Virus record (IMG/VR): IMGVR_UViG_3300028666_000106
Span: 1 to 23,721 of that record
Origin: a virus
DNA length: 23,721 bases
Direction: 5' to 3' (one strand)
Shown: positions 1,701 to 22,254 of the stretch, one piece after another
Layout of the letters: every line of letters starts with the position of its first letter
Position numbering within the stretch: position 1 is the stretch's first letter
Notes under the pieces: generated by a model
The model's database searches: none
Told to the model about the DNA's origin: nothing
Seen by the model: the letters and a program-made list of their open reading frames with translations, nothing else
Made by a program: the position numbers and the translations under genes

Positions 1701-3108
1701 TGCAGGCTTTCCTGAACAACGTAAATTCATAGACGATCCAGCAAAACTCAAAGCCCTTCATTGTACACGCCGCGCAGCTAAGTCTTTCACGGCCGGTCTT
1801 TACATGGTTGAGACAGCCCTTAAGTATCCTGGCAGCAACTCTCTATTCATTGGCCTTACGAGACAATCGGCACTCGACATAATAGATAAGGACATCCTTC
1901 AGGTCATCAATCGGCGCTATAATCTAGACATGCAACTCAATAAAGCCTCACTCACTTATACCTTTCCAAATGGCTCAATCATTAGAATCTCAGGCGTGGA
2001 CTCTTCAGAAGATGAAATGAATAAAGAACTAGGTAAGAAGTTTAAGCTAGTATGTATAGATGAAGGATCGTTATACACGATTAACACGAGGCATCTGATT
2101 TATGACATTCTGGGTCCGGCTATGGCCGACGAAGAAGGGACTACTTGTTTCTTCGGAACTAGCTCGAATATCACCCAGGGTCTATTTTTCGATATTACTA
2201 ATGGCAAAGAGGCCGGATGGTCTTTACATAAATGGTCAGCACATCAAAATCCACACATCAATTGGCAAAAGCAATTAGACGAAATACAAAAGAATCGTCC
2301 TCTGTACATGGAAACCCCACAATTCAGGCAATGGTACTTAAACGAATGGGTTATCGAAACTGACAAACTAGTTTACAAATTCAATATTGAACGTAATATT
2401 TTCCGTGATTTACCTCACCCTCAATCGAAAGGATGGCAATATGTTTTATCATGTGATCTTGGCTGGGAGGACGATACTGCAATCGTATTGTCCGCGTATC
2501 ATGAAAATGATCCAACGTTTTACGTCCTAAAAACCTTCGCCCAAAAACATATGACCTTCGATATGGTCGAGAAAAAGCTTTTAGAGTTTCTAAAAGATCC
2601 TAAATACCCAGTCAACTCAGTCATAATCGACGGTGCTAATAAACAAGGTGTTGAGACCATGACCATGCGCTCAAACATTCTGTTTGAATACGCCGATAAG
2701 CTAGGTAAATCAGATCATATCGAAATCATGAACGGTGATCTTATCCAAGGTAAGGTCAAAATCCATCAGGATGAACATGACCTAATAGACGAGATGATGG
2801 CTTTGGTCTGGAAGACGGCAGGCGATAAAATAGTCTATCCTAGAAAAGAACATCCTAGCCTTCCCAATCATAGATGTGATGCGCTATTATATGGTTGGTT
2901 CAACGGTTGGCACTTTCTATCTACTCCCGCCAAGAAAGCTGCAATCCCAGGCACTCAAGAGTATATCAAAGAACAAGAAGCCCTACATAAAGAAGCCATC
3001 ATGGAGCGAATCAAGCGCGAACAAGCCCTAAAAGACGGTGGTGGTAATCAGATCACTTGGCAAAACGATAAATTCGGAGTAGCGCCTTGGCACCGCTGGG
3101 AGGATTAA
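1615..3108 (+). CDS. terL: Terminase large subunit (packaging ATPase/nuclease)
   Basis: 497 residues. ATP-driven motor that translocates DNA into the prohead and cuts the concatemer. ATPase half: Walker-A-like loop CTRRAAKS at residues 50-57, Walker B VCIDE with D149/E150, coupling segment TTCFFGTSSN. Nuclease half (RNase H fold): D281 in SCDLGWEDDTA, D339 in VIIDGAN, and D422 in HRCDALLYGW, the usual three acidic positions. Length is normal. The start is TTG 1615, set by the AAGGAG at 1601-1606. Oddity: the Gly normally before Lys in the P-loop is Ala (RRAAKS in place of RRAGKS). Ends with TAATG, overlapping the HNH gene by one base. Confidence 0.95.
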   Translation: MEPRNLSLLHSLLNQKIQQSNLKLSQVLNAGFPEQRKFIDDPAKLKALHCTRRAAKSFTAGLYMVETALKYPGSNSLFIGLTRQSALDIIDKDILQVINRRYNLDMQLNKASLTYTFPNGSIIRISGVDSSEDEMNKELGKKFKLVCIDEGSLYTINTRHLIYDILGPAMADEEGTTCFFGTSSNITQGLFFDITNGKEAGWSLHKWSAHQNPHINWQKQLDEIQKNRPLYMETPQFRQWYLNEWVIETDKLVYKFNIERNIFRDLPHPQSKGWQYVLSCDLGWEDDTAIVLSAYHENDPTFYVLKTFAQKHMTFDMVEKKLLEFLKDPKYPVNSVIIDGANKQGVETMTMRSNILFEYADKLGKSDHIEIMNGDLIQGKVKIHQDEHDLIDEMMALVWKTAGDKIVYPRKEHPSLPNHRCDALLYGWFNGWHFLSTPAKKAAIPGTQEYIKEQEALHKEAIMERIKREQALKDGGGNQITWQNDKFGVAPWHRWED

Positions 3109-3467
3109 TGATTAGAACAGAAAAACAAAAAGCCTATGAGAAACAATGGAAAATAGACAATAAAGAAAAGCATAGAGCCAGCTGCAAAAGGTATGAACAG
3201 AAGCATAAAGAAAAAAGTAGACTTAAATGTGCCATACGTCGCGCTATGAAACGGCTTCGAACGCCAAAATGGCTTACTAGATCAGATAGAATCGAAATGA
3301 ACTGGGCATATCGCACCGCAACCAACATCAGTAGAGAAGCCGGAATTAGATATGTTGTTGACCATATCATTCCCTTACAAGGCAAAAATATATCCGGCCT
3401 ACATTGTCCTCAAAACCTTCAAATTATAACAAGAAGCATCAATAGTTCTAAAAGCAATAACTACTAA
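3108..3467 (+). CDS. HNH endonuclease
   Basis: 119 residues from ATG 3108, which overlaps the terL stop (TAATG) and follows GGGAGG at 3098-3103; an upstream in-frame TTG at 3087 is less likely. The N-terminal half is very rich in Lys/Arg (DNA contact). The C-terminal half carries the HNH core: D85-H86 in VVDHIIPLQG, H99 and N103 in LHCPQNLQII, and N112. HNH proteins next to terminase are known in many phages to assist DNA cleavage during packaging (established for several cos phages). A free-standing homing nuclease is the alternative; the position and tight coupling to terL favour a packaging role. Confidence 0.88.
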   Translation: MIRTEKQKAYEKQWKIDNKEKHRASCKRYEQKHKEKSRLKCAIRRAMKRLRTPKWLTRSDRIEMNWAYRTATNISREAGIRYVVDHIIPLQGKNISGLHCPQNLQIITRSINSSKSNNY

Positions 3468-3491
3468 TTCTGAAGCACTTCACTATAAGTG

Positions 3492-3743
3492 ATGAGCAAT
3501 CTTCCATTTCTAAAAAAGAAGGTCTGGCCTACTGAACGCAAAATGTCGGGCGTATCAAAGTATGGCTATTCCGAAGATGATGAGCTTATCGAACAATCAT
3601 TAAATGAGCTAATCCACGCAATCGAAACCAAAGATCACAATCAGCTCTCGATGGCTCTTAAAGCTTTGATTGATTGCGTTATGAATAAAGAAAGTGAGAA
3701 GTCAGATGCCCCTGATTCACTCGAAGAAGCCAGCAGCATTTAG
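3492..3743 (+). CDS. Small hypothetical protein with a KDH-type helical module
   Basis: 83 residues from ATG 3492 (a GTG three bases earlier is in frame). No clear Shine-Dalgarno; the 24 bases before the start include a short CACTT/AAGTG inverted repeat. The N-terminus is basic (FLKKKVWPTERK). Residues about 28-67 are predicted helical and contain LIHAIETKDHNQL, closely resembling the C-terminal module of the next gene. The tail is acidic. Function unknown; it lies in the block of small genes between packaging and portal genes. Overlaps the next gene by 38 bp. Confidence 0.65.
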   Translation: MSNLPFLKKKVWPTERKMSGVSKYGYSEDDELIEQSLNELIHAIETKDHNQLSMALKALIDCVMNKESEKSDAPDSLEEASSI

Positions 3744-4317
3744 TAAAAATGTCTCAACTGAGATGCGTGCGGGGAAACCTCAAAAGCAGGCACTGGCAAT
3801 AGCTTATTCCATTAAGAATAGAGCCCACAAAGCAGATGGCGGAATGTGTGAATGTAAAGGTGAAGGCTGTGCCAAATGTATGGATGAAGGTGGCAAAGTA
3901 GACAGTCCCGGATGGAAAGCTAAAGGATGGACTCACGATAAAGATTATAATGAAGGAGTTCACAAAGATGTAAGTGGCAAAGGAGAATCTTATACTGGCA
4001 CATTAGTCAGAAAAGGATTTACCGATAGAGCGATAGACAGACAAAAAAGCCAAATGTCTCATAATGCCGCATCTCCAAGTCCTAAACTCAAAGGCTTAGC
4101 CGCTGGAGGCCCTGTTCTTCCAGGAGCTCAGTCAGCACAAGACTCTATGAGAAAGTCTTTTAACTTCAAAGATGGCGGAGAAGTTGATGGTGACTCAGAA
4201 ATCCATGACATGCTAGGCAGCGAGATGATGGATGCCATTCATTCTAAAGATCACAAAAAACTTATGCAAGGTATTGAAGCAATGGTGCTTCATCACATGA
4301 GCAAAAAGGAAGATTAA
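3706..4317 (+). CDS. Gly-Gly-box protein with Cys cluster, unknown function
   Basis: 203 residues from ATG 3706 (a GTG at 3694 would add four residues). The N-terminus is a basic module containing SKNVSTEMRAGKPQKQALAI, which I remember from other phage proteins. Four Gly-Gly boxes follow: KADGGM, MDEGGKV, LAAGGPV, FKDGGEV. Between the first two lies C48-x-C50-x4-C55-x2-C58, a plausible zinc knuckle. PKLKGLAAGG recurs, almost identical, in the protein encoded at 18832-20664. The last 38 residues form a helical module (MMDAIHSKDHKKL) paralogous to the one in the preceding gene. No membrane segment. The shared boxes suggest it works with the internal virion proteins downstream; this is inference. 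Confidence 0.7.
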   Translation: MPLIHSKKPAAFSKNVSTEMRAGKPQKQALAIAYSIKNRAHKADGGMCECKGEGCAKCMDEGGKVDSPGWKAKGWTHDKDYNEGVHKDVSGKGESYTGTLVRKGFTDRAIDRQKSQMSHNAASPSPKLKGLAAGGPVLPGAQSAQDSMRKSFNFKDGGEVDGDSEIHDMLGSEMMDAIHSKDHKKLMQGIEAMVLHHMSKKED

Positions 4318-13414: not shown

Positions 13415-16400
13415 ATGGCCGGAATAATCCCTCAACCAGTTACAATTAATTTTTCTCAAGGTGTAAATCTTAAGACAGATCCTTGGCAAATTCAAATGGG
13501 GCAATTTCTAGCTCTTGAAAACAGTATTTTTACTACACAAGACCAGCTAAGAAAAAGAAATGGCTATGGTCTTCTAACTACTATTCCTGGAGCTGCGACA
13601 GTAACTACTTATCTAGGAAATCTAATAGCTCTAGGAGAACAACTAACTATTTTCTCTGAAGATACTGATAAATTTATAAACACAGGCGCTATTCAGCCAA
13701 TGAGCTTAAGTGTTTTACCAATGGTCCGGTCTGCAACTTCCCAAACAACAGTTGATGCCGTAATTGCTCCAAATGGTTTGGCACTAGAAATATGGATGGA
13801 TTCAAATGGTAATTCTTATTATCAAATAAATGATTCAGCCACAGGCGGCACAATAATTCCTGCTGTTTCTATAACTTCAGTTGTAGATGTCGGCGCTACC
13901 ATGCCAAGGGTTTTTGTTTTAGGTAATTATTTTATTATTACATGGCTTGCTACGGTATCTTCTAATTCAGCGATAAGATACATGGCAATTCCATATGCTA
14001 ATCCTACATCTCCCTTTGCTCCGGTGACAATTTCTACTGCTATAACAAGCATAACTGCGGCATACGATGCTTTAAGTGTAAACGTGAACGCTGGAGTTTT
14101 ATACATAGCTTGGGAAGATGCCGGCGCTATTAAAATAACTCAGATAAGCAATTCTCTTTTACAAGGATCTACAGTCTCTCAAACTTCTTCTCCAGCAACA
14201 TTGATATCTCTTTCTTGGGACGCAGTTAATAGCCAATTATGGGTGTCTTATTATAATTCAGGAACCATACACACAGCAGCTTATTCATCAAGCATAGCTC
14301 CATTATTAGCAGCAACTCTTGTAAGCTCTGTGACTTTAAATAATGGGCTAACATCTACTGCAAATGCAGGAATCGTTACAGTATTTTATGAAGTAAGTAA
14401 TTTCTATGGATTTGATGCAACACTTAGGACTGATTATTTATCATCGAATACCTGCACAATTGGTGGGGTAGCTGGTACTCCTGTCATTGTTTTGCGAGGA
14501 GTAGGACTTTCAAGCAAGGCTGTTTTTTCAAACGATCAAAGCTACATGCTTATCTGCTACAGCTCAGCCTATCAACCAACATATTTTTTGATCTCTGGAA
14601 ACGGAAAGATTATTGGAAAGTTGGCTTATTCCAATGGCGGCGGATACATAATAAATCAAATACTGCCACAGATAAATGTGTCGATTTCAAACGGTGAAAC
14701 TGTATTTCAAGTTGGATATTTGTTTAAAGACTTTCTGGCAAGTATCGCAAATCCAATAGGACCTGTTGGGTCAAATGTTGGAACAAATAAAGCTTTAGGC
14801 GCTGCAGCTCCGCCTGTTTATAGCACTACTGGAATAAATATAGCCACATGGACTTTTGGAGCAAAAGTGCCGAGTGCTGAAACCGGATCAATCCTTCATA
14901 TGGGTATGGGATATCCTGTAATGTTTGATGGCGTAAAGCCGGTGGAACATCAATTTCATGTTTGGCCAGACGCAATGGAAGTTTCATCGACAAATACTGG
15001 CGGCGGATTATTTGCCCAACAATATTACTGGCAAGGTATTTATAACTGGACTGATGCGCAAGGCAATCCTCAATATAGCGCTCCGAGCATACCGGTAGGA
15101 CAAGTCATAAAAACAGGGCCAGGACTTACAACTACTGCCGCATTTTCAGCTGGCAGCACTACTATAACAGTTATTTCGGCTACAGGATTATTTGTAGGGC
15201 AAATAATAGAAGATATCTCAGTAGCTCCTCCTACGACAACCTCGGCATTCGCGGCAGGAGTCACTTTTATAAACGTAGCATCTGTGGCTGGATTTTCGAT
15301 TGGAATGATACTTGTAGACTCAACTCTTCCTGTAGCATTCCAGGCGAATACAACAATCATAAAAATAGATCCTGTTAATTTAATTTTTGAATTAAGTCAG
15401 CCTACAGCATTTGCTTCAAGCTCCACTGACACTATTACAACTCCAAATTTCGGAGGGCTTCAGGCCAATACAAAAATAACTTCAATTAATGGGCTTACAT
15501 TAACAATAAATCTGCCTACTTTGACCACGTCTACTGCAGATACAATACAAACGGTAGATCAAGGAAGCGCTACCATTTATTTTCCAACATTAAGACTCAC
15601 AGATAAAACTGTAAATAAGGTGAGATTAAATCTTTATAGATGGTCTGCTCTCAATCAAAACTTCTATGAAGTGACTTCAGTTTCAAGTCCTGTTTTAAAT
15701 GATCCAACTGTTGATTACATAACGATTATTGATAATGCAAATGATCTCTCAATAGTTGGAAATAGTTTGATCTATACAACCGGCGGGACAGTAGAAGATG
15801 TGGCAGCGCCTTCTTTTTCAGTTTGTTCAATGTTTGATGATAGACTTTGGGTATTGGATGCTGAAGATGGGACTATTTGGTATTCAAAACAAGTTTTGCC
15901 TGGCACTGGCGTTGAATTTAGCGATCTTTTCACTTATTATGTCGCTCCAACTCAGGGAGCTCAAGGTTCTACGGGATTACCTACAGCGCTTAGTCCTATG
16001 GACACGGAATTTGTAATCTTTAAAAAAGAAGCAATATTTTTTTTGACAGGCTCTGGCCCTGATAATACTGGAGCGGGGTCTACTTATTCTCAACCAATTT
16101 ATATTAGCTCCACTGTAGGATGCACTAATCCCAATAGCATAATTCAAACTGATGAAGGATTGATGTTTCAATCCGATAAAGGCATTTGGCTTTTAAGTAG
16201 AGGATTGCAGCCTATGTATATTGGCCAAGCTGTAGAACGACTTGTCATAGGGAATATTGTTACCGCCGCCAATGTTATACCAGGAACAACCCAAGTCAGA
16301 TTTATCATGAATACAGGAATCACATTGATGTATGACTATCTCTATAAGCAGTGGGGATGGTTTACAAATACTCCGGGAGTTTCAGCAACCCTTTATCAAA

Positions 16401-16906
16401 ATCTTCATACTTACTTAGATCAATACGACAGAATTGTTCAAGAAACCCCTGGAGTATATCTAGATATTTCAGAGCCCATAAATATGTATGCTTTATCTGG
16501 ATGGATTCAGCTTCAGGGATTATCTGGGTATCAAAGACTTTTAGAATTACAACTCTTAGGATCTTATATTACACCCCATACTTTGAATGTTGAGTTTGGA
16601 TATGACTATGGTCCTATAAGTGAGCAGGCAGAAATTCAACCCATTAATGGCACTGGAAATTATGGATCTGATGCGTTGTTTGGACAGACTTCTCCGTACG
16701 GTGGTCCAGGAAGTTTAGAACAATGGAGAGTCCAAAACGCACATCAGCAGTGCCAAGCATTTCAAATTTCTATTCAAGAAGTGTACGATGAAAGTCATGG
16801 AGTACCAGCAGGAGCGGGATTGACTCTGTCTGCTTTCACAGCAATAGTTGGAGTAACTAAAGGGTATAGACCTGTTAAGGCCGCTAACACGGTGGGGACA
16901 AATTAA
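13415..16906 (+). CDS. Large tail hub/nozzle-like beta-propeller protein
   Basis: 1163 residues; ATG directly follows the previous TAA. The start (VTINFSQGVNLKTDPWQIQM, then LENSIFTTQDQLRKRNGY) is the pattern of short-tail nozzle and DNA-stabilisation proteins such as those of P22/T7-type tails, which have beta-propeller cores. Many strand repeats (LYIAWEDAG, LWVSYYNSG) in residues about 60-430 agree. Residues about 572-677 contain two inserted beta modules (AFSAGSTTITVISATGLFVG and AFAAGVTFINVASVAGFSIG). The C-terminal region has WVLDAEDGTIWYS and YDYLYKQWGWFTN, further propeller-like blades. Role: closes the tail tube and retains DNA; inferred by analogy. Confidence 0.72.
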   Translation: MAGIIPQPVTINFSQGVNLKTDPWQIQMGQFLALENSIFTTQDQLRKRNGYGLLTTIPGAATVTTYLGNLIALGEQLTIFSEDTDKFINTGAIQPMSLSVLPMVRSATSQTTVDAVIAPNGLALEIWMDSNGNSYYQINDSATGGTIIPAVSITSVVDVGATMPRVFVLGNYFIITWLATVSSNSAIRYMAIPYANPTSPFAPVTISTAITSITAAYDALSVNVNAGVLYIAWEDAGAIKITQISNSLLQGSTVSQTSSPATLISLSWDAVNSQLWVSYYNSGTIHTAAYSSSIAPLLAATLVSSVTLNNGLTSTANAGIVTVFYEVSNFYGFDATLRTDYLSSNTCTIGGVAGTPVIVLRGVGLSSKAVFSNDQSYMLICYSSAYQPTYFLISGNGKIIGKLAYSNGGGYIINQILPQINVSISNGETVFQVGYLFKDFLASIANPIGPVGSNVGTNKALGAAAPPVYSTTGINIATWTFGAKVPSAETGSILHMGMGYPVMFDGVKPVEHQFHVWPDAMEVSSTNTGGGLFAQQYYWQGIYNWTDAQGNPQYSAPSIPVGQVIKTGPGLTTTAAFSAGSTTITVISATGLFVGQIIEDISVAPPTTTSAFAAGVTFINVASVAGFSIGMILVDSTLPVAFQANTTIIKIDPVNLIFELSQPTAFASSSTDTITTPNFGGLQANTKITSINGLTLTINLPTLTTSTADTIQTVDQGSATIYFPTLRLTDKTVNKVRLNLYRWSALNQNFYEVTSVSSPVLNDPTVDYITIIDNANDLSIVGNSLIYTTGGTVEDVAAPSFSVCSMFDDRLWVLDAEDGTIWYSKQVLPGTGVEFSDLFTYYVAPTQGAQGSTGLPTALSPMDTEFVIFKKEAIFFLTGSGPDNTGAGSTYSQPIYISSTVGCTNPNSIIQTDEGLMFQSDKGIWLLSRGLQPMYIGQAVERLVIGNIVTAANVIPGTTQVRFIMNTGITLMYDYLYKQWGWFTNTPGVSATLYQNLHTYLDQYDRIVQETPGVYLDISEPINMYALSGWIQLQGLSGYQRLLELQLLGSYITPHTLNVEFGYDYGPISEQAEIQPINGTGNYGSDALFGQTSPYGGPGSLEQWRVQNAHQQCQAFQISIQEVYDESHGVPAGAGLTLSAFTAIVGVTKGYRPVKAANTVGTN

Positions 16907-18831
16907 TGAATATCAAGAAATTCAATGAACGAATGGGCCGTCCTAAGTTTTCTAAAGGTGGCTATATCAAAAAACTTGGTAATAGACATTATTTTGATGC
17001 CGGCGGAATAGCCCAAAATGCAACAATTCCTGGAGTCGTAAGTGGAAATTCAACAAACACCACGACAAATGGGATTGGCGGAATTGCACAAGCTTTAGGT
17101 CTTAATGCGGCAAGCGCAAATATCAATCAAGGAACAAATGCCGCACAACTTAATAACGCTTATGGCAATGTAAACAATGCTCTTAATGCTCAAGTCGGTT
17201 TAACAAATACTTTAACTCCGCAAGCTCAAACTGCAGCTCAAAATCAAAATGCTGTAGCACAACAAGAATTAGCCATGACTCAAGGTCAAGGACCTAATCC
17301 AGCCCAAACACAACTTGCTCAAAGCACTGGTCAAAATGTTAATCAAGAATCTGCTCTTTTAGCAGGACAACGTGGATCAAATGCAAATGTTGGTTTAGCT
17401 GGAAGAAATATTGCTCAAACCGGTGCTCAAACTCAACAAACAGCTGCAGGACAAGCGGCTACATTAGAAGCTCAACAACAAATCGCAGCGCAGAATAATT
17501 TAACAAATTTATCTAACCAACAAGTAAATCAAGCTCAAGGCGCTACAACTGCTCTAAATCAAGGTCAACAAAATGAGCAAAATATTCTTCAGAATGCGAA
17601 CACTAGTGGCAATAATGCTGCAGTAAGTATGCAAGGAAATATCAATAATAATAATGCTGCAGCCAATTCGTCTCTTATGGGTGGTTTGACTTCAGGATTA
17701 GGAGCTGTTGCAGGCCTTCTTAATAAAGGAGGAGATGTTCATCCTGTTCATGGAAAACAAAAATTAGAATTTATTCATAAAATGGCCAAGATGGGTATGG
17801 AACACTATGATGGCGGGGGATATACATCAAGTGAACCATCGTCTGGTCCTACGATCGCAGCGCCTGCTCCGTCCTCCAGCGGAAGCAGCGGGGGTGGAGG
17901 GAGTGGCGGAGGGGGCCTTGGCCTTTTAGCTTTACTAGCAGATGGCGGAAAGGTAGCCACTCCTTCCCCTTCTCCAAGTCATCCAGGCATTTCTCTTGGA
18001 GCACCCGCTGCGAGTGCATCTGATGTCACTCCTGCGAATATGTCTCAATCACAAATGCAAAATGTAATGTCTGGATTTAAGCAGATGAAAGCAGATGGGG
18101 GAACAATTTCTGCTAATCCATTGCTTGCGGGAATAACAAATTCTCCTCAAAGTTTGGCTAATCAAGGTGGATATTCATCTTCTGAAGCCTCAAGTGGTCC
18201 AGGAAGTCTCGGCGGTCCATCTGGAGCGGGTGCTGATCTAGGAAAAAGCGCTTCTCAGGGATTTGCAGCAACTCATAAAGCTCCTGGTGATCCAATGGCT
18301 GGATCTAGCAATGATATAGCAGATTCTTCTGGTGTTGCTGGAGGAGCCCAGTGGGCTGGCGTTGATTCATCTGCGGCTCCTAGCTCTGTATTCGATACAG
18401 GAGCTGCTGGCCAAGTTGGTCCTTCACAAATGAACGTGGCAAAAGGTGGAGAAATTTGGTCTCTTCATCCTTCTCAACACGCCGCTTACTCAGCTAATCA
18501 TTTCGCTAGATATTTTGCAAAAGGTGGAGAAGCTAAAGAAGTTAAAGCTATGGTTTCTCCTGGGGAAAGATATTGGAACCCTGAAGAAGTTGAACAAATT
18601 AAGCATGGTGCAGACCCAATGAAACTAGGGAAAATATTTCCTGGTAAAGCTAAAGTCCCAGGAAAAGATACTTTGAAAAATGATACAGTTCCTGAAACTT
18701 TGCAAGAGGGTGGTATAGTAAATCCTCTGCATGTTGAGAAAACAAAAAATCCTGATAAAGCCAGACTCTTTATTTTAAAATCGCTTAAAGCAACCGGTAA
18801 ACATCTCAAACGACCTGCGGGGATGAAATAA
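16906..18831 (+). CDS. Internal virion (DNA ejection type) protein with Gly-Gly boxes
   Basis: 641 residues; ATG overlaps the previous stop. Residues about 60-260 are very rich in Asn/Gln/Ala, including QTAAQNQNAVAQQELAMTQG and ESALLAGQRGSNANVGLAGR, a pattern I know from internal/ejection proteins of short-tailed phages. About ten Gly-Gly boxes are scattered (FSKGGYI, FDAGGIA, LNKGGDV, LADGGKV, KADGGTI, VAKGGEI, FAKGGEA, LQEGGIV). There is a Gly/Ser linker at 17877-17930 and a repeated GGYxSSExSSGP block. Near the C-terminus, AMVSPGERYWNPEEVEQIK and NDTVPETLQEGGIV recall the NDxVPAxL/SPGE motifs of tape-measure proteins. Basic tail. Probably packed in the capsid and ejected with DNA; inference. 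Confidence 0.7.
   Translation: MNIKKFNERMGRPKFSKGGYIKKLGNRHYFDAGGIAQNATIPGVVSGNSTNTTTNGIGGIAQALGLNAASANINQGTNAAQLNNAYGNVNNALNAQVGLTNTLTPQAQTAAQNQNAVAQQELAMTQGQGPNPAQTQLAQSTGQNVNQESALLAGQRGSNANVGLAGRNIAQTGAQTQQTAAGQAATLEAQQQIAAQNNLTNLSNQQVNQAQGATTALNQGQQNEQNILQNANTSGNNAAVSMQGNINNNNAAANSSLMGGLTSGLGAVAGLLNKGGDVHPVHGKQKLEFIHKMAKMGMEHYDGGGYTSSEPSSGPTIAAPAPSSSGSSGGGGSGGGGLGLLALLADGGKVATPSPSPSHPGISLGAPAASASDVTPANMSQSQMQNVMSGFKQMKADGGTISANPLLAGITNSPQSLANQGGYSSSEASSGPGSLGGPSGAGADLGKSASQGFAATHKAPGDPMAGSSNDIADSSGVAGGAQWAGVDSSAAPSSVFDTGAAGQVGPSQMNVAKGGEIWSLHPSQHAAYSANHFARYFAKGGEAKEVKAMVSPGERYWNPEEVEQIKHGADPMKLGKIFPGKAKVPGKDTLKNDTVPETLQEGGIVNPLHVEKTKNPDKARLFILKSLKATGKHLKRPAGMK
17083..17680 (+). repeat. 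Asn/Gln/Ala-rich low-complexity coding region
   Basis: Codons here read mostly Asn, Gln, Ala and Thr (for example NINQGTNAAQLNNAYGNVNN). No exact tandem unit; it is compositional, heptad-like in places, and could form helical bundles or aggregate-prone segments. Confidence 0.7.
17812..18201 (+). repeat. Dispersed duplicate GGYxSSExSSGP within the gene at 16906
   Basis: Bases 17812-17850 encode GGGYTSSEPSSGP and 18166-18201 encode GGYSSSEASSGP. The protein matches at all but two aligned positions while codons differ widely, which suggests conservation of the peptide rather than recent DNA duplication. Confidence 0.7.
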
Positions 18832-20664
18832 ATGATGGACCTAAAAGGTTGGCAAAAAATAGGTGAAGACAAAAAAACCACTACAATGAAAAATGAAAAA
18901 GGCCATCTTATGACCTTGGTTCATAAAAGTCTTCCTGCGATTCAGAAAGAAGCATTAAAACGTTTACCTCTTTATGATGGGGGAGAAGTTAAGGGTGTTC
19001 ATAAAAGTTATTTTGATGAGCCTGAAACTAAAAAACAAATGGGTGAATCTAAAGCTGGTGATAAAGTTCGAAGCATGGATATTAATAAATCTTCTAAAAA
19101 TGAAGCTAAAGAAGAACATCATAAAGTTTTAGGCGAAATGAAGTCCATGCCAAACCCAAAATTAAAGGGATTAGCTAAAGGTGGAATGGCTTATTATGAT
19201 GAAGGTTCTAAAAATGGGCCTGTATCTTCTGATGATGCGAAAGCTCCCGTAGTTGTAAATGTTGGTCAACCAAGTGCGGCGGCACAACAAGCTCAAACGC
19301 CCGTTAATGTGCAACAGCCAAATGTAAGCTCACAAAATCCTCCAGTACAACTTCCTAATGGATCCATGTCAGCTCCAGGCACTGCTCAAACAGGATTACA
19401 AGCTGAGCAAGAACAAAGAAACGTTGATATCGCTAAAGCTCAATCAATGGTTCCAATTGAGCAGGCAAAATTGCAAGCTCAGCGCGATCAAGCTATAAAT
19501 GATCAAAATAATATTAATGCACTTAGAACACATGCTGATAATTTAGCTCAAAATCTAAATAAAGTTGATCCAGATGCATATAGAAAAAATATGTCAGCTC
19601 CAGATAAAGTTGCTACAGGATTAGGATTGTTCCTCGGAGGATTTTCTGTGCCTTATGGAGGACAAAATTACACAGCTGATTTTTTGAATAAACAAATCGA
19701 TCGCGATATAGATGCTCAAAAGAATAATCAGGAAAGACAAAAAACCATTTTTGGAGCTTACAAAGATCTTTATCAAGATCAAAACTTAGCCAGCAATATG
19801 GCTAAAGCATCCATGGCAGATATCTATCAGAGCCAAGCAGCTCAAATAGCTCAAAAGCTTGGCACCCCACAAGCCATTGCAAATTATCATAAAGTCGCAT
19901 CAGATCTGGCTACTGTAAAAAATAAAGCTATTTTGGACAGCGCCGGTAACTTGTCTAGTATACCAAATAATCCGGCCGGGAAAGTTCAACCAGCACAAGA
20001 ATTACCTTCTGGAGCGAGCAATAATCCAAATCAAAAACTCATCGATCAGGGACTGGTAGCAGGGCAAGCGTCTTTAGGGAATCCTTCAGCGCAGGCTTCT
20101 ATCCCTGGTAATGGCCAAAAACCATTGATCGAGCCTGACGAATACGCTGATACTCCTATTTTAAAACCAGGAGCTCAAGAACATTTAGATGAATTAAGAT
20201 ATACGCCTAAAGCTAAAGATGAGATCGAACAGATTAAAACACAATACAATGCCGCTCAACAGGCGGATATAGTTTTAAGTCAATTACATAATGTACATCA
20301 ACAACTTTATGAAGATGCCAAGGAGGGAGGAACAGGAGGTTATTTCAAAAGACATGACCCCACAGCTCATATACCGCTTATAGGAGGGGCTCTTTCCACA
20401 GCAGGTATACAACCAATGACAGATACAAAAACAAATAGAGATTATGAAACAAATAGGACGCGCGTGGTAAGCGATATAGCTAATGCCCTTAAAGGAACTA
20501 ATGTGTCTGGAGAAGAAATTAATAGAATTGTGGACGCCAATTTGCCCGAGCACGGCGATGATCCCCAACAAGTAGCACGAAAAGAACGAGCGATCAGAAT
20601 CTTTATTAAAAATGCTATAAACAAGGGTTTACTCAAAGATTGGAAATTACAATATGGGACTTAA
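18832..20664 (+). CDS. Internal virion (DNA ejection type) protein
   Basis: 610 residues; ATG ATG directly follows the previous TAA. N-terminal domain (residues about 4-50: TTTMKNEKGHLMTLVHKSLP) is a small module seen before Gly-Gly boxes in phage proteins (from memory), followed by LYDGGEV and PKLKGLAKGGMA. A Gln/Pro-rich linker leads to a long helical part (residues about 190-360) with VATGLGLFLGGFSVPYGG and FLNKQIDRDIDAQKNNQERQ, the signature I associate with internal proteins of short-tailed phages. The C-terminal part is charged and helical (EEINRIVDANLPEHGDDPQQ). No lytic-transglycosylase motif seen. Ends just before a strong promoter. Confidence 0.7.
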   Translation: MMDLKGWQKIGEDKKTTTMKNEKGHLMTLVHKSLPAIQKEALKRLPLYDGGEVKGVHKSYFDEPETKKQMGESKAGDKVRSMDINKSSKNEAKEEHHKVLGEMKSMPNPKLKGLAKGGMAYYDEGSKNGPVSSDDAKAPVVVNVGQPSAAAQQAQTPVNVQQPNVSSQNPPVQLPNGSMSAPGTAQTGLQAEQEQRNVDIAKAQSMVPIEQAKLQAQRDQAINDQNNINALRTHADNLAQNLNKVDPDAYRKNMSAPDKVATGLGLFLGGFSVPYGGQNYTADFLNKQIDRDIDAQKNNQERQKTIFGAYKDLYQDQNLASNMAKASMADIYQSQAAQIAQKLGTPQAIANYHKVASDLATVKNKAILDSAGNLSSIPNNPAGKVQPAQELPSGASNNPNQKLIDQGLVAGQASLGNPSAQASIPGNGQKPLIEPDEYADTPILKPGAQEHLDELRYTPKAKDEIEQIKTQYNAAQQADIVLSQLHNVHQQLYEDAKEGGTGGYFKRHDPTAHIPLIGGALSTAGIQPMTDTKTNRDYETNRTRVVSDIANALKGTNVSGEEINRIVDANLPEHGDDPQQVARKERAIRIFIKNAINKGLLKDWKLQYGT

Positions 20665-20666
20665 TG

Positions 20667-20695
20667 TTGACATATATGTTTACACGTGTTAATAT
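20667..20695 (+). promoter_or_regulatory. Sigma70-type promoter TTGACA-N17-TAATAT
   Basis: TTGACA at 20667-20672, a 17-base spacer, and TAATAT at 20690-20695 form an almost ideal vegetative promoter starting two bases after the stop of the previous gene. The spacer ends in the palindrome ACACGTGT (20682-20689), a possible operator. It would drive the membrane-protein gene at 20712, with a 5' leader of about ten bases. Confidence 0.82.
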
Positions 20696-20711
20696 ATTTG
20701 TAGAGGTGATT

Positions 20712-20957
20712 ATGGGAACATTAGGATTTATATTGGGTTCTACTCTTCATAGAATAGCTTATAACAAGATTAGATTTTTGGTTTCTACATTTCTAATTTG
20801 GTTTTTAGTTGTTTCAAATGTGAATGTCCCTGATTACATGATTAGAGATTGGTTCACAATGTTTATGATTTTTTCCATGTTGATTCTTATATATGGAGCT
20901 ATTGGATTTAGAGTGTTTTTAATAGGTCGTGGAACAATGAGAATTATGAGCAAATGA
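20712..20957 (+). CDS. Small membrane protein (candidate moron or holin)
   Basis: 81 residues from ATG 20712, preceded by AGAGGTGA (20702-20709). Two membrane segments: residues about 20-39 (RFLVSTFLIWFLVVSNVNV) and about 47-71 (FTMFMIFSMLILIYGAIGF), with a short basic C-terminus RGTMRIMSK. By hand count the gene is about 30% GC, lower than its neighbours. It has its own promoter and interrupts the internal-protein genes, which fits a moron, for example a superinfection-exclusion factor. Size and topology also fit a class II holin, but no lysin gene is next to it. An upstream in-frame TTG (20640) is rejected because it precedes the promoter. Confidence 0.72.
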   Translation: MGTLGFILGSTLHRIAYNKIRFLVSTFLIWFLVVSNVNVPDYMIRDWFTMFMIFSMLILIYGAIGFRVFLIGRGTMRIMSK

Positions 20958-20991
20958 AGTTCTGTAACAAATGAAAAATAGAGTAACATAA

Positions 20992-22254
20992 ATGGCAATT
21001 GGACAAATACCAGTTACAAAAGACAATAGTGTTTCTGGAGCGTCAGGTCCGAGCAAGGCAGAACCTTCAGTAAGTTACTCTAAAAACAAACTTGGTGAAG
21101 GACAAGTCCAAACTGTTACTGATGGCAAAACAAAAGTAATAACATCTACAGGCGAAAGCACTGGCTCAAAAGCTGGCGATGATATTTCTCGTGGCGCCAG
21201 GCAGAATTATTTTAATCAAAACGGCAAATGGCCTCCATGTATAAATACCGATTGTAAAAGTTATGGAAGGCCGCATCCAAACTGCCTTTGTTTTGGACCT
21301 ATGAGCCAAGCGGGAAAATTTGAATATGCTCAAGGAGGATGTGTTGGTCCACATCATGAATCTTGCGAACACTATGCCGAAGGGGGACAAGTCGCAGAGC
21401 AAACTAAATTTTCACTTCACCCACAAAATTCACTTGATCACGTAGCTGCAGAACATGGGCTTTTACATTTGCTGACAAAAACTGGTCATAACGGGCAATC
21501 TAAAAATGAACATAAATATTTAGAAGATTATTTTGAGAATTCTAAAAAGGGCCATAAGACAGTTGATAGCCATGTGAAACGTCTTATAGTGGATGAAAAG
21601 TTAGATCTCGATCCTGATAAGGGAAAAGTAGAGGCTTTAAAAAGTCATTTAGATGATCTTGAGCAAAATCCTGGAAAAGCATTTGATGTGGGTGGACATT
21701 TAGGAAAAACATTACCTGATCATGCTGCGGCACTTGGATCAAAGACTGCTCAAGCTATGAACTACTTTAAGGGACTAAAACCTATGAAGTCACAAAATAG
21801 CCCACTTGACCCAGTCACTGAGCCTACAAAATCATCTAAACACACTTATGACAGGCAACTTGGTATCGCTGAGAATCCCATGCTTGTGTTGCATCATGCT
21901 AAGCACGGTACATTACAACCACAAGATCTCATTACTTTGCACACACTTTATCCTGCACTTGGTCAATCTATGACTGGTAAGGCTGGAGAAGCTGTAATTG
22001 ATGCAAAACAAAAAGATGTAACTATTCCTAGGATTCAAAGACATGGACTTTCATCTCTTTTAGGGCAACCATTAAGTACAACTCAAACTCCGATGGCGAT
22101 GCAAGCCATTATTAAAGCAAATATGCCTATGCAAGCTCCTCAGGGGCAAAAACCCCCTAAGAAGGCTTCTGGAACAGAATTAAAACAAATCGATAAGACA
22201 AATGATCTTTTGGCAACTCCAAATCAGTCTAGACTTCTCAATAAAAAACAATAG
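20992..22254 (+). CDS. Internal virion-type protein with zinc-knuckle-like clusters and Gly-Gly boxes
   Basis: 420 residues from ATG 20992; only a weak AGAG site upstream. Polar N-terminus, then C83-x4-C88-x9-C98-x-C100 with H95 (CKSYGRPHPNCLC), a pattern I remember from other phage proteins. Next, YAQGG and YAEGG boxes bracket C117, H121, H122, C125 and H127. Residues about 140-400 are helical: LDHVAAEHGLLHLLTK, FDVGGHLGKTLPDHAAALGS, YDRQLGIAENPMLVLHHAKH, RHGLSSLLGQPLSTTQTPMA. The helical part fits a virion-internal protein family of short-tailed phages by memory. Metal binding is inferred from residue spacing only. Confidence 0.68.
   Translation: MAIGQIPVTKDNSVSGASGPSKAEPSVSYSKNKLGEGQVQTVTDGKTKVITSTGESTGSKAGDDISRGARQNYFNQNGKWPPCINTDCKSYGRPHPNCLCFGPMSQAGKFEYAQGGCVGPHHESCEHYAEGGQVAEQTKFSLHPQNSLDHVAAEHGLLHLLTKTGHNGQSKNEHKYLEDYFENSKKGHKTVDSHVKRLIVDEKLDLDPDKGKVEALKSHLDDLEQNPGKAFDVGGHLGKTLPDHAAALGSKTAQAMNYFKGLKPMKSQNSPLDPVTEPTKSSKHTYDRQLGIAENPMLVLHHAKHGTLQPQDLITLHTLYPALGQSMTGKAGEAVIDAKQKDVTIPRIQRHGLSSLLGQPLSTTQTPMAMQAIIKANMPMQAPQGQKPPKKASGTELKQIDKTNDLLATPNQSRLLNKKQ

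Follow-up and report, generated by a model that had tools for sequence, protein, structure and literature searches.

The ejection proteins gp20-24 of phage SU10 are lost on genome release (PMC9509320), and ART-PolyVal domains are typical components of phage proteins that are believed to be packaged and then injected (PMC5512222). These facts give indirect points of comparison for four proteins described here, referred to by the first position of their genes as the 3706, 16906, 18832 and 20992 proteins. The last three are encoded together behind the tail genes, a position that parallels that of the gp20-24 genes in SU10, whose portal and capsid protein are distantly related to those found here; gp20-24, however, show no sequence match and contain neither Cys nor Gly-Gly boxes of this kind. 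No sequence match to known ejection proteins was found for any of the four, nor a fold match for the 20992 protein, in phage records, PHROG, BFVD or the PDB. The phage polyvalent proteins (PF18760 ART-PolyVal and others) are similar in being multi-module phage proteins, and one homologue, that of phage G004, does have ART-PolyVal, whereas the window's own protein has no enzyme domain in Pfam. At the level of the modules, short zinc knuckles and treble-clef-like fingers (the retroviral CCHC knuckle, the DnaJ CR repeat, the RING-type cross-brace) share four Cys/His in 11–25 residues and Gly-rich turns with the clusters found here, and two-zinc modules share the eight ligands of the double motif of the 20992 protein.

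The window, the whole stretch of 23,721 nucleotides that was analysed, is an IMG/VR virus record in which profile searches found a terminase gene and probable SU10-like portal and SU10-like capsid protein genes, in a gene order similar to that of SU10. It is a fragment of an uncultured podovirus. Its portal matched PF23899 (E 6e-5) and its MCP PF17236 (E 0.004), both below the curated Pfam cut-offs. None of the INPHARED phages matched the window portal; cultured phages gave no match to the portal, the 20992 protein or the double motif, and the double-motif pattern was not found in bacterial genomes. About 30 related phage contigs were identified, collected from viral contigs through the portal and capsid protein and later through DNA patterns of the motif. 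A direct search of viral contigs with the 20992 protein gave no match, and its homologues were reached through the portal/capsid relatives. The same portal, at 34–54% identity, was present in all eight contigs tested among those found by motif patterns, so the Cys/His module belongs, as far as seen, to one phage clade. Pattern matches in L130, L131, L133 and L134 were chance occurrences in unrelated proteins. Elsewhere in the window, a gene with weak HTH and GNAT acetyltransferase matches lies upstream of the terminase genes (187–1053), and a possible HNH-type endonuclease gene, perhaps a mobile insertion, lies behind the terminase (3087–3467); it is not listed there in the relative L013, where a gene resembling a DNA methyltransferase instead precedes the terminase. 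In G003, two opposite-strand genes directly follow the capsid gene (L097 8785–10508), and the FkbM methyltransferase and glycosyltransferase family 9 matches of that phage may be these two genes.

The 3706 protein (203 aa; 3706–4317, plus strand, like the genes of the other three proteins) is encoded directly upstream of the portal gene. Its start is placed at the ATG at 3706 rather than the GTG at 3694 because the phrog_2423 match begins at residue 1 and homologues begin MPL. Residues 1–44 match this PHROGs profile of unknown function (E 2.9e-15) and form an N-terminal helical hairpin module (3706–3837; AF2 helices at residues 9–21 and 26–39). In other phages phrog_2423 is usually a stand-alone gene of about 50 aa rather than an N-terminal module; in those of L002–L005 and MW202545 a Gly-Gly pair follows the module, as in the 3706 protein, but no Cys cluster lies behind it. 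In the window, the module runs into a first Gly-Gly box (KADGG, residues 42–46, 3829–3843), the copy-1 Cys cluster C48-x-C50-x4-C55-x2-C58 (3847–3879) and a second box (MDEGGKV, 3880–3900, with MDEGG at residues 59–63). Further on are a "GVH...PKLxGLAxGG" module (3952–4113), a third box (LAAGGPV, 4096–4116), a fourth (FKDGGEV, 4165–4185) and a C-terminal helical hairpin (SKDHKK region, 4189–4305), which is the best conserved part (AF2 pLDDT about 93). The AF2 model consists of confident helical hairpins joined at the boxes by linkers with pLDDT < 50, as at residues 41–47 and 152–158. A small gene ahead of the 3706 protein (3489–3743) resembles its C-terminal hairpin (cross-matches of the two families at E 1e-4 to 5e-5), so that the hairpin seemingly occurs both alone and as a module.

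An earlier note on this DNA had described the cluster as bracketed by KADGG and MDEGG. The translation bears this out: the GG pairs (residues 45–46 and 62–63) lie 17 residues apart around C48, C50, C55 and C58, with the interval 3835–3900 about 6 bases off (KADGG 3829–3843, MDEGG 3880–3894). These are all the Cys of the protein; if four Cys were placed by chance in 203 aa, all of them would fall in the 15-residue gap with a probability of about 2e-5, and in any 11-residue span with one of 3e-4. When the gene between terminase and portal was taken from about 20 related contigs, a Cys cluster stood directly before a Gly-Gly box in 16 proteins (the window's own and 15 close homologues), with very variable spacing. 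Eight of these have four Cys (CxCx4CxxC or Cx4CxxCx4C), five have three Cys and a near His (H-x3-C-x-C-x2-C in three of the five), and three have two Cys and a near His; the two-Cys versions would have to draw on His as ligands, in a protein that is rich in His. Taken alone, this compensation by His is not significant (product of background chances about 0.05 for the three-Cys group), and the excess of His near the cluster may be background because the 3706-type protein is His-rich. The upstream box is present in 7/16 and missing in 9/16, because that box ends the N-terminal phrog_2423 module. Two complete close homologues (L066, L062) keep boxes and have no Cys cluster, L045 and L013 have lost both, and L043 and L046 are incomplete sequences. 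In distant phages (portal about 40%), the cluster was found in five of six (G028, G027, G023, G026, G024), in one version as H-G-E-D-C-E-C-P-N-C and in G023 with no box directly behind it; G029 has boxes and no Cys.

The second copy proposed in the same note, with 16 residues from GG to GG, is likewise present, in the 420-aa 20992 protein (20992–22254), where YAQGG-C117-VGPH121H-ES-C125-EHYAEGG spans 21325–21387 and the region between the boxes holds C117, H121, H122 and C125. An alignment of ten proteins of this family (the window's own and nine homologues, 38–62% identity) showed C83, C88, H95, C98, C100, C117, H121, C125 and both GG pairs to be invariant. Because ligands in both halves are invariant, what had been called copy 2 is only the second half of an eight-ligand double motif that starts at C83. 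The first half, C83-x4-C88-x6-H95-P-N-C98-x-C100 (21238–21291), is followed by a box (YAQGGCV, 21325–21345, GG115/116), the second half C117-x3-H121-x3-C125 (21340–21366) and another box (YAEGGQV, 21373–21393, GG131/132). All six Cys are invariant, versus 44/420 positions overall, and the two invariant His, of 21 in the protein, fall in the same motif, giving eight ligands, which by their number would be enough for two zinc ions. Further proteins with the double motif were found by DNA pattern search. The pattern that the note had named as evidence against a metal module, Cys lost at random while the boxes are kept, is thus absent from copy 2. In copy 1 it was seen in part: there is no clear-cut loss of a single residue, but the kind of ligand and the spacing vary, and Cys are missing from some homologues.

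The Cys/His modules are not tied to one gene. In G008, GGHVxGCQCAQC-xx-EGG is found in the 3706-type protein and again in the 18832-type one; the two copies differ mostly by synonymous changes, and identical residues often have different codons, which points to an old copy or to selection on the protein. The window's own 18832 protein (610 aa, 18832–20664) has Gly-Gly boxes, and while its G008 homologue carries this copy-1-like module, those of G023 and G024 contain the copy-2-like double motif; the 20992-type protein of G023 has no Cys in its visible parts. The GVH...PKLxGLAxGG module is common to the 3706 and 18832 families, as phmmer cross-matches between them show. In the G004 homologue of the 20992 protein (L086 640–2394), an ART-PolyVal ADP-ribosyltransferase domain (PF18760, E 4e-13) takes up exactly the stretch that separates the box behind the first half from the box ahead of the second half. 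Of the earlier proposal that two genes share a defined box-knuckle-box module, the core therefore holds, in that a Cys/His mini-module is common to different genes, is conserved and moves between proteins. The fixed two-box format does not: the upstream box is often missing, G023 has no box directly behind the cluster, copy 2 belongs to the larger motif, and boxes join Cys-free modules too. Judged from the sequences, the mini-module is real, conserved and mobile. It is quite possible, if somewhat short of an even chance, that copy 1 and copy 2 are nevertheless unrelated, their Cys motifs having arisen separately and the common boxes being a mere joint, as the whole proteins are non-homologous, the ligand patterns differ and the copy-1 spacing drifts; a common origin is plausible because Cys modules demonstrably move between proteins of the clade. 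A broader idea, that the clade uses Gly-Gly boxes as the standard joints of a construction kit for virion-delivered proteins, with genes swapping zinc cassettes, helical beads and, in one phage or more, an ADP-ribosyltransferase at these joints, the zinc cassette having a role in packaging or delivery, is offered tentatively and is rather doubtful.

The boxes themselves are defined by their context. In the 3706 protein, GG pairs as such show no enrichment (4 seen, 2.4 expected), while the motif [YFLMH]-x-x-GG-x-[VI], a regular expression with a restricted alphabet, occurred 84 times versus 1.0 expected by shuffling in the four families, taken from 11 related phages, and 16 times versus 4.5 expected in 467 other ORFs; these ratios are descriptive because the expression was written after inspection of the boxes. 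Boxes are concentrated in the four proteins, among them the 16906 protein (641 aa, 16906–18831), which has many boxes and no Cys. Since boxes also join Cys-free modules, they are not part of the presumed metal site. Most of the 16 other matches seem to represent a single fixed YTTGG site of a tail protein. The L097 homologue of the large tail-type protein at 13415–16906 has a weak match to the internal virion protein phrog_511 (E 7e-7), and a YTTGG site recurs in the relatives. The C-terminal stretch of the 16906 protein (AMVSPGE...KVPGK...LKNDTVP...LQEGGIV) resembles what we take to be a common phage internal/tape-measure repeat, with PGEFV as its last box, and in L105 this box reads SKGELVV, so that the Gly-Gly box may be a form of such a PGEFV-type motif. 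A fixed DNA element or recombination site was rejected as an account of the boxes, their codons being diverse (14 codon pairs, mild GGC excess).

Two other functions for the boxes can be weighed against that of joints. They could be short docking motifs that recruit proteins into the head through scaffold, capsid or portal, with the Cys clusters a separate matter; the same context motif in four non-homologous proteins, with at most six strict boxes each, and its rarity in the remaining proteome would fit this. Box number and position, however, change freely between homologues, as those of linkers would, and two 3706-type homologues (L045, L013) have no box at all, which makes docking unlikely. 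It could also be that a protease cuts after GG and frees the modules as the capsid matures. GG-X is the cutting site of adenovirus-type proteases, and such cleavage is known from some dsDNA viruses of eukaryotes; four proteins have their boxes at module borders and in linkers predicted to be disordered, which would suit such processing. The residue in front of GG is variable, however (D, E, K, A, H or S), and residue +1 varies widely. Pfam and PHROGs searches of the 38 ORFs in the near-complete relative G003 found no peptidase family, which makes processing less likely, though a divergent one could be missed. Processing is accordingly rated as improbable.

As to the Cys/His modules, it is likely from the pattern of their residues that they bind metal. 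At least four conserved Cys/His ligands per site, the generic mark of a zinc module, are found in copy 2, while in copy 1 the cluster is conserved and its spacing variable. The Cys regions matched no Pfam, NCBIfam or PHROG model and no PDB sequence, and narrow literature searches found no description of the motif. The ligand spacings differ from the C-X2-C-X4-H-X4-C of the retroviral CCHC knuckle (PF00098), and CECKGEGCAKC is only loosely like part of the four CXXCXGXG repeats of the DnaJ Cys-rich domain, with no Pfam match to either. Modelled by AF2 without metal, the Cys regions of the 3706 and 20992 proteins have low confidence, so the ligand geometry is not supported; the 20992 model has a confident helical domain at about residues 140–360 and gave no Foldseek match at E <= 0.001 in either library. 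That the Cys form disulphides or a redox switch with no metal site, holding the proteins in the particle or reacting on entry, has little to recommend it, for although the Cys are concentrated in clusters and CxxC and CxC are also redox spacings, the invariant His of copy 2 and the His near all three-Cys versions favour metal ligands, and virions assemble in a reducing cytoplasm.

Conserved ligand sets, modules common to several genes, an insertion at a box and boxes in low-confidence linkers were all observed. To these we would add, by inference, zinc, packaging in the virion, ejection and an advantage in threading, and we lean slightly towards the reading that the 3706, 16906, 18832 and 20992 proteins are virion-internal proteins built as beads on a string, some beads being zinc knuckles, with the 16906–20992 group probably ejected. 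Small helical or Cys/His modules would be joined in all four by flexible Gly-Gly boxes. The Cys/His clusters would be structural zinc knuckles, with a single four-ligand site in the 3706 protein and, in the 20992 protein, two zinc sites made up of six Cys and two His, each able to fold a stretch of about 20–45 residues without a hydrophobic core. The four proteins would most likely be packaged in the virion, in keeping with the ART-PolyVal domain of the G004 homologue, and the 16906–20992 group would probably be ejected with the DNA, as its gene block corresponds in position to that of SU10 gp20-24; the 3706 gene adjoins the portal and lies outside this block. Zinc beads on flexible joints could suit passage through a narrow portal and tail with rapid refolding, or contacts made with a partner or with DNA. 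Zinc binding could hold together with docking by the boxes and with an independent origin of the two copies.

If this reading is true, the clade would hold an undescribed zinc mini-domain, whose eight-ligand form has invariant Cys/His, together with phage proteins of jointed architecture that probably accompany the DNA. Fast-evolving proteins could then be annotated by their pattern of joints and ligands where sequence search fails, and there would be a hypothesis to test about how the construction of delivered proteins lets them through a narrow tail.
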